Part shown: positions 15,286 to 21,496 of the stretch, piece by piece
Position numbering within the stretch: position 1 is the stretch's first letter
Layout of the letters: each line of letters begins with the position of its first letter
NCBI RefSeq assembly: GCF_002688585.1
Contig: NZ_CP024034.1
Span: 363,501-427,500 of the forward strand
Length of the DNA: 64,000 bases
Source of the DNA: Candidatus Fonsibacter ubiquis
Lineage (GTDB): Bacteria > Pseudomonadota > Alphaproteobacteria > Pelagibacterales > Pelagibacteraceae
Direction of reading: 5' to 3'
Translations under genes and position numbers: made by a program
Notes under the pieces: generated by a model
The model's input: the letters and a program-made list of their open reading frames with translations, nothing else
Told to the model about the DNA's origin: nothing
Databases searched by the model: none

Positions 15286-15408
15286 AATTAAATGTGCTTT
15301 TTATATAAGCAAATCGTATTATTTTAAAACTCATATTTTATAATTAAATCCTAGAAAGCATTAGATAATATAGCTATATTCGCCATTCGAAATTTAATTA
15401 ATAATAAA

Positions 15409-15492
15409 GCGGGAGTGGTGGAACGGTAGACACGCCAGTCTTAGGAACTGGTATCGAAAGATGTGAAGGTTCAAGTCCTTTCTCCCGCACCA
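15409..15492 (+). tRNA. tRNA-Leu (anticodon UAG)
   Basis: The acceptor stem GCGGGAG/CTCCCGC, anticodon stem CCAGT/ACTGG with loop CTTAGGA (anticodon TAG), a long variable arm and T loop GGTTCAAGTCC identify it. CCA is encoded at 15490-15492; the final A is also the first base of an ATG in frame with tig. Confidence 0.97.
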
Positions 15493-17719: not shown

Positions 17720-19003
17720 ATGGCCAAAGATAATAAAAATACTCTTTATTGCTCTTTCTGCGGAAAAAGTCAGCACGAAGTTAGAAAACTTATAGCCGGT
17801 CCTACAGTTTTTATATGTGATGAGTGTGTCGAACTTTGTATGGATATCATCAAAGAAGAGAACAAAAGTAATTTTGTTAAAGATGATGCTGGGGTTCCAA
17901 CGCCAAAAGAAATTTGTAAAGTTTTGGATGAGTATGTAATTGGTCAAGATAAAGCAAAAAAAGTTTTATCTGTTGCAGTTCACAATCACTACAAAAGATT
18001 AAATCAAGACTCTAAAAGTAGCAAAGATGTCGAAATTTCAAAGTCTAACGTTTTGCTTATAGGTCCGACAGGTTGTGGAAAAACTTTATTAGCACAAACT
18101 CTTGCAAAAATTCTAGATGTTCCATTTACTATGGCTGATGCTACTACATTGACCGAGGCAGGCTATGTTGGAGAAGATGTTGAGAACATTATTCTAAAAT
18201 TATTACAAGCCGCTGATTATAATGTTGAAAAAGCGCAAAGAGGAATTGTTTATATTGATGAAGTTGATAAAATTAGCAGAAAAACAGAAAACCCCTCTAT
18301 TACAAGAGACGTTTCTGGAGAAGGAGTTCAGCAAGCTCTTTTAAAAATTATGGAAGGAACAGTCGCAAGCGTTCCACCACAAGGGGGAAGAAAGCATCCT
18401 CAACAAGAATTTTTACAAGTTAATACAACTAATATTCTATTTATTTGTGGAGGAGCATTTGGTGGATTGGAAAAAATTGTATCATTAAGAAGCAAAGGGA
18501 CTGCTATGGGCTTTGGTGCAACAATCAGAGAACACGATAATAAGAATACAGGACAGATATTAAAAGAATTAGAGCCAGAAGATTTATTAAAATTCGGGCT
18601 AATACCTGAGTTTATAGGAAGACTGCCAATTGTTGCTACATTAGACGATTTACATGAAGAAGCGCTAATTAAAATTTTACAAGAACCAAAAAATGCGCTT
18701 TTAAAACAATATGCTAAACTTTTTGAAATAGAAGGGGCAAAGCTTACTTTTACTAAAGACTCTTTGTCAGCTATCGCTAAAAAAGCTCTAATTAGAAAAA
18801 CAGGAGCAAGAGGTCTTAGATCAATTTTAGAAGATATTTTACTTGAGACAATGTTTGAACTTCCTTCTCAATCAAATATTAGCGAGGTAGTAATCAATAA
18901 GGATGTTGTAGAAGGAAAAATTAAGCCATTACTAACTTATTCAAAGAAAAACAATCAGACCTCCGGCACATCAATTAATAATAAAGAGAGCAAAATAGGC
19001 TAG
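17720..19003 (+). CDS. clpX: Clp protease ATP-binding subunit ClpX
   Basis: ClpX is the AAA+ unfoldase that feeds ClpP. The 427-residue chain has a four-cysteine zinc-binding domain (Cys11, Cys14, Cys33, Cys36), Walker A GPTGCGKT, Walker [11 protein letters not shown], an EFIGRLPI segment (the RFIGR-like loop region) and the sensor-2 GARGLRS. It follows clpP by 111 bases, more than most spacings here, leaving room for its own promoter. Confidence 0.97.
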
Positions 19004-19012
19004 TTATTCACA

Positions 19013-19040
19013 GTTGAATTTACATTAAACGTCCCCATAT
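19013..19040 (+). promoter_or_regulatory. heat-shock (sigma-32/RpoH)-type promoter of lon
   Basis: GTTGAA (19013-19018), a 14-base spacer and CCCCATAT (19033-19040) match the RpoH consensus CTTGAA-N13-17-CCCCATnT, with one mismatch in the -35 core. Sequence such as CCCC is rare in this AT-rich DNA, so the match stands out. Lon is a heat-shock protease in many bacteria. The predicted start is near 19047. Confidence 0.75.
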
Positions 19041-19050
19041 AACGTTAACC

Positions 19051-19068
19051 TTGTTATAAATATAACAA
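19051..19068 (+). promoter_or_regulatory. perfect palindrome in the lon leader
   Basis: TTGTTATA-AA-TATAACAA is an 18-base perfect inverted repeat just after the predicted lon transcription start and 16 bases before the start codon. A further TATAAC at 19039-19044 repeats the half-site core. In RNA it could form a 7-bp A-U hairpin with a 4-base loop; in DNA it looks like a repressor operator. Confidence 0.5.
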
Positions 19069-19084
19069 TTAATATTATTGATTT

Positions 19085-21496
19085 ATGGAAGTTAAAGAAT
19101 CGCAAAAAAATAATCAGGCTCAATATCCGGTATTACCCCTAAGAGATATTGTTGTTTTTCCTGGAATGGTGGTTCCGCTTTTTGTTGGAAGAGAAAAGTC
19201 TATTAATGCCTTAAATAATGTCATGGATAAGTATAAGAAAATTATACTTGCTGCTCAAAAAAGCCATGATGTAGATGATCCTAAGGATAATGAAATTTAC
19301 CAAGTCGGTTGCTTAGGTGAAATATTACAGTTGTTAAAACTTCCAGATGGAACAGTTAAAATTTTAGTCGAAGGAAAAGAAAGAGTAAAAATAAATCAAT
19401 ATCATAATGAAGAAAAGAATTTTTTATTAGCTTCATGCTCAACCTTAGCCGATGATCTTGGCAAAGAAGATTTATCTTTACTATCAAAAGCAGTTTTAAA
19501 TAAATTCGATAAATTAGTTAAAGTTTCAAAAAAAGTATCAGAAGAGGGTCTTGAGACAATTAAAGACACAAAAGAACCATCAAAAATTGCAGATGCAGTT
19601 GCTAATCAATTACAAATTAGTTTAGTTGAAAAGCAAAAAATTTTAGAGAATTTATCTGTTCAAAATAGATTAGAATCTCTTTTAACTTTTATCGAAAGTG
19701 AAATTGAAGTTTTATCAGTTGAGAAAAAAATTAGAGGTAGAGTTAAAAACCAAATGGAAAAAACTCAAAGAGAATATTATTTAAATGAACAATTAAAAGC
19801 TATTCAAAAAGAATTAGGTGAAACAGAAGATGGAAAAGATGAAATTCAGAATTTAGAAGAAGCAATTAAGAAAGCTAAAATGACTAAAGAAGCTGAAGAT
19901 AAATCATTAGCAGAATTAAAAAAATTAAAATCAATGAGTCCGATGTCAGCTGAATCTACTGTAGTTAGAAATTATTTAGATTGGATGGTTTCGTTACCAT
20001 GGGGAAAAATTTCAAAAGTAAACACTGATATAAATAATGCAAAAAAAATTCTTGATGAAGATCACTATGGGTTAGAAAAAGTAAAAGATAGAATCTTAGA
20101 ATTTTTGGCAGTGCAAAGTAGAATTAATAAAATTAAAGGGCCAATTCTTTGTCTAGTAGGAGCGCCCGGAGTTGGAAAAACATCTTTAGGTAAATCTATA
20201 GCTAAAGCTACCGGAAGAGAGTTTGTAAGAATGTCTTTAGGCGGCATTAGAGATGAAGCTGAGATTAGAGGTCATAGAAGAACATACATTGGATCTTTAC
20301 CAGGAAAAATAATTCAAATGATGAAAAAGTCAGGAAAAAATAATCCTTTAATTTTATTAGATGAAATTGATAAAATCGGAAATGACTATAGGGGAGATCC
20401 CTCATCAGCGTTATTAGAGGCACTGGATCCAGAGCAAAATACAACATTTAATGATCATTATCTAGAAGTGGATTATGATTTGTCCAATGTAATGTTTGTT
20501 ACTACCGCAAATACTTTAAATATACCCGGTCCATTATTAGATAGAATGGAAGTGATTAGAATATCTGGTTACACAGAAGATGAAAAAATGGAAATTGCAA
20601 AAAAATATCTTCTGCCTAAACAAATTAAAGAGAACGGATTAAAAACAGGGGAATGGATTGTCTCCGATGAAGCATTAAAATATATCATTAGATACTATAC
20701 CAGGGAGTCTGGGGTTAGAAGTTTAGAGAGAGAGATTTCAAAACTTGCAAGGAAAGGAGTTAAAGATATTGTTACTAAGACAAAAGACACAATTAAAATT
20801 GATGAAAAAAATCTTAATGACTATCTTGGTGTCAAAAAATTTAAATATGGTGAAATTGAAAATAAAGATGGAACAGGAATTGTTACCGGACTTGCTTGGA
20901 CTGAAGTAGGTGGTGAACTATTAACAATTGAGTCTGTAATAATGCCAGGGAAAGGTAAGATGGAAATAACTGGAAAACTAGGAGAGGTTATGCAGGAATC
21001 CGTTAAAGCTGCAAAATCTTTTGTTAGATCTAGGTGCATAGAATATGGTATCATTCCCCCTGTTTTCGAAAAAAAGGACATTCATATTCATGTGCCTGAA
21101 GGAGCAACGCCTAAAGATGGGCCGTCAGCTGGTATTGCAATGGTAACTTCAATTGTATCATCTTTGACAGGTATCCCAGTTAGAAGAGAAGTCGCCATGA
21201 CAGGAGAAGTAACCTTAAGAGGAAGAGTACTTCCAATTGGTGGTTTAAAAGAAAAATTATTGGCAGCACTCAGAGGAGGTATTAAAACTGTTTTGATACC
21301 AGATGAAAACGAGAAAGACTTAGCTGAAATACCTAAAAATGTTATTGAAGGTCTAAAAATTATTCCAGTAAAAACAGTAGATGAAGTGTTAAAAGTAGCT
21401 TTAACCAAATCTTTAACGCCAATTGATTGGGTCGAAATTGATATGTCGCAAACGCAAAAGACAAAAGACATTTCAAGTGAAAGACCTGTTAATTAA
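19085..21496 (+). CDS. lon: ATP-dependent protease Lon
   Basis: The 803-residue chain has the N-terminal substrate-recognition domain (starting [22 protein letters not shown]-like; motif [10 protein letters not shown]), a coiled middle, Walker [10 protein letters not shown], Walker [11 protein letters not shown] and the protease domain with catalytic Ser681 in PKDGPSAG and Lys722 in GGLKEK. It degrades misfolded and regulatory proteins. A heat-shock-type promoter and a palindrome lie upstream. Downstream, where many alphaproteobacteria carry hupB, there is the accessory glycan cassette. Confidence 0.97.

Follow-up and report, generated by a model that had tools for sequence, protein, structure and literature searches.

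The clpX-lon gap

The window, a 64-kb stretch (64,000 nucleotides) of the genome of the freshwater bacterium Candidatus Fonsibacter ubiquis, a member of SAR11 as the sequence-only reading had presumed, spans G000:C1:363501-427500 of a single contig of 1,160,202 bases and carries the gene cluster tig-clpP-clpX-lon. The clpX stop codon occupies 19001-19003 and the lon ATG begins at 19085, so that the promoter-like element considered here lies within the 81-bp clpX-lon gap, in which no terminator-like site was found by a scan. It is intergenic, is oriented along the coding strand and stands ahead of lon, a heat-shock gene. Read directly on this strand, the order is TAG, TTATTCACA, GTTGAA, TTTACATTAAACGT, CCCCATAT and AACGTT, in which GTTGAA is at 19013-19018 and CCCCATAT, 14 bases after it, at 19033-19040. 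The features of the gap and its flanks are as follows.

17720-19003, + strand: clpX, the upstream neighbour, without a sigma-32-like element (open reading frame, site scans)
19013-19018, + strand: -35 box GTTGAA (sigma-32 consensus CTTGAA), read from the sequence and invariant in 9/9 genomes of the genus
19019-19032, + strand: 14-nt spacer, variable in sequence and nearly constant in length (alignment of relatives)
19033-19040, + strand: -10 box CCCCATAT, with the conserved core CCATAT at -13 to -8 (sequence, relatives)
19048, + strand: predicted transcription start (+1), ±2, from the register of E. coli dnaKp1 in the numbering of PMC10216364
19053-19061, + strand: possible second promoter TGTTATAAA, extended -10, sigma-70-like; a weak candidate by consensus, kept in 8/9 genomes of the genus
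19085-21496, + strand: lon, 803 aa, the gene that would be driven, with a predicted leader of 37 nt (open reading frame)

The two boxes differ from the sigma-32 pair CTTGAA / CCCCATNT by one mismatch, and their 14-nt spacing is within the sigma-32 range of ~13-16 nt. Compared to E. coli dnaKp1 (CTTGAA-N14-CCCCATTT), the lon element has the same two boxes, spacing and register, but shows G for C in the -35 box and C residues at -15/-14 that drift beyond the genus. The sequence-only reading had recognised a match to the RpoH consensus in GTTGAA, a 14-nt spacer and CCCCATAT, and all three are found exactly at 19013-19040; with position -35 at 19013, the +1 would be placed at 19048, one base off the 19047 of that reading.

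Its count alone would not single out the lon match; its position, conservation and partners do. The window has a single TTGAA-N12-16-CCCCAT where 0.17 would be expected, and TTGAA-N11-17-CCCCAT is found seven times in the 1.16-Mb genome, against two for the reversed pattern; six of these seven sites lie within coding genes and the lon site is the only intergenic one. The CCCCATNT box by itself is not rare (seven in the window, 3.9 expected). The CCCC run, which had been pointed out earlier, is not kept beyond the genus, and its role as the key feature was rejected for this lack of conservation.

Conservation ahead of lon in the Pelagibacterales

The pattern TTG(A/C)A-17 bases-CATNT stands ahead of lon in nearly all of ~100 Pelagibacterales genomes checked, and the distance from TTGAA to CATNT is 17 in nearly all relatives and 18 in two. 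In the genus alignment, GTTGAA is invariant (9/9) while the spacer and leader differ, and CCATAT is retained in all nine genomes when a one-base gain in the spacer of G003 is allowed. Several other genera of the family show CTTGAAA or GTTGAAA with CATAT 17 bases after TTGAA, and TTGAA-N17-CATNT is kept in a second family (11 genomes), as CTTGAAA with CATTT or CATCT. Among 80 further genomes of the order, 76 show TTGAA or TTGCA followed at 17 bases by CATAT, the -10 box being usually 7-9 bases from the lon ATG; the remaining four, from genera g11 and g12, have TTGNN-N17-TATNT only. CTTGAA...CCATCT-like sites are also often seen before lon in more distant alphaproteobacteria. The comparison of lon upstream regions, proposed earlier as a check, finds both boxes kept in close relatives at near-constant spacing.

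It counts against the element that the nearest other genera (g7, g11, and g12) show only degenerate forms or none, and that TTGCA stands in place of TTGAA before lon in most of the family's other genomes. No clear site was found ahead of lon in G018 (g7), and conservation of the C at -15/-14 of the -10 box does not extend past the genus. In most other family genomes (L337-L412), lon has ATTGCA rather than CTTGAA as its -35 box, and RpoH may act on lon less strongly in genomes of this type; one of them (G015) retains CTTGAA at groES and hsp20. For most of the family's other genera, leaderless lon mRNAs are predicted, the -10 box ending 7-9 bases before the ATG.

RpoH and its candidate targets

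The genome encodes a single RpoH that exceeds the family cut-off and a single RpoD, in agreement with the two sigma factors reported for SAR11 (PMC13198564) and with the earlier remark that RpoH is among the few that SAR11 keeps. The RpoH (G000:C1:280994-281809) scores 367 bits against a cut-off of 323, its RpoH box reads QKKLFFNLRK, and the closest solved structure is that of E. coli RpoH (8hkc). In the alignment to this E. coli sigma-32, the RpoH box and Thr128 are kept, and Ala takes the position of Lys130, with which E. coli sigma-32 reads C at -15/-14 (PMC10216364). All main SAR11 RpoH sequences read differ from E. coli sigma-32 at this place, having Ala, Thr or Ser, and SAR11 RpoH shows a sigma-70-like WW where the E. 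coli protein has HW. Ala, Thr or Ser at the Lys130 place would explain the drift of the outer two C of CCCC in relatives. The gammaproteobacterial form, in which Lys130 reads the C at -15/-14, is not the one found here: both C are present in this genome but not conserved in the order, and the RpoH has Ala. A second RpoH-like sigma factor, with KSLFFSLRK in the RpoH-box place, was seen at ~289 bits, below the cut-off, in most sampled genomes of family f2 (e.g., L065), and none was found in the sampled genomes of the window's own family.

Other alphaproteobacteria show related variation. Ehrlichia chaffeensis, an alphaproteobacterium of reduced genome whose only sigma factors are sigma-32 and sigma-70, has Gln at the Lys130 place and does not need a C-rich extended -10, and the extended -10 C is not needed by all alphaproteobacterial sigma-32 promoters (PMC6687850). 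Its dnaK promoter is, like the SAR11 elements, independent of the C run, but has a -10 box without C (TATATN), whereas CCATAT of lon retains two. The Sinorhizobium RpoH1 promoter, in the form quoted in PMC4843759 (CTTGAA-N15-16-CCTATAT), shares the -35 core and spacing with lon, whose -10 core is CAT, not TAT; the TAT form is found at the grpE of the genome itself (CTAGAAA...ACCTATAT) and at many groES sites of relatives.

A weight matrix was derived from 18 lon and groES sites, all from outside the genus. Because the lon training sites were picked by the motif itself, the lon score is a test of conservation and not a blind one. Of the 75 gene fronts scanned in the window, lon ranks first at 16.2 bits, followed by 9.3 bits for the next, with a median of -0.2. 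Maxima of 12-20 bits are obtained from randomised 64-kb sequences, so that the score alone proves nothing and was discarded as proof. The grpE, hslV, and hsp20 genes were held out and scored once the matrix was fixed: the own grpE site CTAGAAATTCAAAATATAGTACCTATAT reaches 16.2 bits, an hslV element is present in 12 of 13 relatives, mostly as CTTGAA...CCACAT, and hsp20 of relatives scores up to 23.5 bits. The weak hsp20 site of the genome itself (11.1 bits), and the lack of such a site at its rpoH, count against the RpoH reading.

Besides lon, similar elements are present in the same genome at groES, clpB, grpE and, as a variant, dnaK, the variant (TTGTA-N17-CACAT or CATAT) being conserved across genera. 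The genome-wide counts come from pattern searches and selected stretches, and by these TTGAA-N16-18-CATAT has 20 sites, against 14 for the reversed pattern; 16 of the 20 lie within genes. The four intergenic sites are all correctly stranded, and the genes they precede are clpB, groES, lon, and one that is azoreductase-like; about one would be expected, since ~4-5% of the window is non-coding. The product of the last gene, which is divergent from hsp20, resembles, as judged by eye, an FMN-dependent azoreductase. The two genes have back-to-back elements at G000:C1:111243-111418, of 23.1 bits for the azoreductase-like gene and 11.1 for hsp20, with the -35 boxes almost touching. At clpB (G000:C1:54304-54353), the -10 box ends ~8 bases before the ATG and a leaderless mRNA is predicted; full-length clpB (G000:C1:54353-56899) is present in the genus, and none of the SAR11 genomes sampled beyond the genus gave a clpB over the cut-off. 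No element was found before htpG in five second-family genomes. Self-control of rpoH was set aside, as the front of rpoH has no such site in this genome and has one only in some relatives.

The sequence-only reading had seen no comparable element in front of tig, clpP, and clpX. This holds for clpP and clpX, whose fronts have no sigma-32-like element in this genome, and nearly so in relatives, which show at most weak hits of up to 10 bits before clpX. It does not hold for tig, where a weaker look-alike at 15351-15379 (CTAGAAA-N14-GCTATAT, 14.3 bits) is kept in the genus. The look-alike stands 30 bp ahead of a tRNA-Leu gene at 15409-15492 and is best read as the promoter of that gene (TAGAAA-17-TATATT); because of this fit and its absence in other genera, it was set aside as a second heat-shock promoter. 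It also resembles the own grpE site, and on this likeness co-control of tig by RpoH is still conceivable.

Probable nature and use of the lon element

The lon element has the sequence and register of a sigma-32 promoter, is conserved, and shares its motif with other heat-shock genes in a genome whose one RpoH has the DNA-reading regions. Judged from sequence comparison, a genuine RpoH (sigma-32) promoter very probably drives lon inside the tig-clpP-clpX-lon cluster, and it is an ordinary, well-conserved, and expected member of a known promoter class. We infer RpoH use, the start site, heat induction, and release by DnaK in the following form. RNA polymerase with the single RpoH would read TTGAA through region 4.2 and CCATAT through region 2, and transcription would start near 19048. 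On the model of Caulobacter and E. coli, RpoH would be released from DnaK by unfolded protein and would bind core polymerase, whereupon lon transcription would rise with that of groESL, grpE, dnaK, and clpB. Basal Lon could come from read-through from clpX and, perhaps, from weak initiation by sigma-70 polymerase inside the leader. In Caulobacter, sigma-32 induces lon and clpP, not clpX (PMC8119881); the distribution of elements here shows the same pattern for lon and clpX, whereas clpP has no element and the Fonsibacter genome is without hslV and htpG.

An ordinary sigma-70 promoter, TTGAAT-18 bases-TATAAC with a coincidental C run, would fit the sigma-70 consensus at 9/12 positions, and could be favoured by the WW that SAR11 RpoH shares with sigma-70 and by the Ehrlichia promoters, which are readable by both sigma factors (PMC6687850). 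However, the C directly before AT persists in nearly all genomes, unlike the end bases of TATAAC, and the genes marked by a similar element (groES, clpB, grpE, hslV, and hsp20) are not a random set, which makes sigma-70 alone very unlikely. It is harder still to credit a chance resemblance in an AT-rich gap, with lon co-transcribed from upstream only: both boxes are kept at fixed spacing across two families, none is found at clpP or clpX, and lon leads the 75 gene fronts, although the genome does hold seven equal matches, six of them within genes, and no terminator-like site separates clpX and lon.

Rather than replacing the RpoH promoter, a dual arrangement would refine it, and we put it forward tentatively, as a possibility short of an expectation. 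In addition to the sigma-32 site at 19013-19040, the leader would contain a sigma-70 start that is used constitutively, and lon would be heat-inducible over a basal level; in the genus alignment (n=9), this genome reads TGTTATAAA there, at 19053-19061. The TTGTTATAAA block is kept in 8/9 genomes of the genus, a scan lists TTGTTA-16-TATTAT at 19051-19078, and Caulobacter dnaK has paired sigma-32 and sigma-70-type promoters (PMC8119881). On the other hand, the sigma-70 scan yields no more sites than shuffles do, and the block is missing in other genera, in which the gap is often too short. A leader palindrome, TTGTTATAAATATAACAA (19051-19068), was rejected as a regulator site because only its first half is conserved.

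As two sigma factors are reported for SAR11 (PMC13198564), its RpoH targets become nearly listable by eye. The candidate regulon would comprise groESL, grpE-dnaK, clpB, lon, and the azoreductase-like gene beside hsp20. For a group that ranks among the most abundant bacteria, this would be a small heat-shock regulon amenable to testing, with the lon promoter as its anchor. The cultured strain LSUCC0530 of Candidatus Fonsibacter ubiquis shows no growth at 35 °C or above (PMC6018831). A SAR11 -10 consensus of CCATAT, in which the outer C run is dispensable, would keep E. coli-based scans from missing targets.

A match to the DnaA box, TTATTCACA at 19004-19012, abuts the -35 box and is invariant in the genus except for TTATACACA in G003. 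In the second family, each of the 11 genomes (L021, L022, L024-L031, and L033) has a TTAT(A/G/T)CACA that overlaps the -10 box of lon and varies only where the DnaA box allows any base. Such a match near the lon promoter is absent in the other genera examined, the window has four DnaA-box sites against 3.6 expected, and the match beside the lon promoter may be due to chance. Judged from these sequences, a second role of the lon heat-shock promoter as a target of DnaA in some SAR11 lineages is improbable; as DnaA is a substrate of Lon in Caulobacter (PMC8119881), such an arrangement would imply feedback between the replication initiator and the protease.
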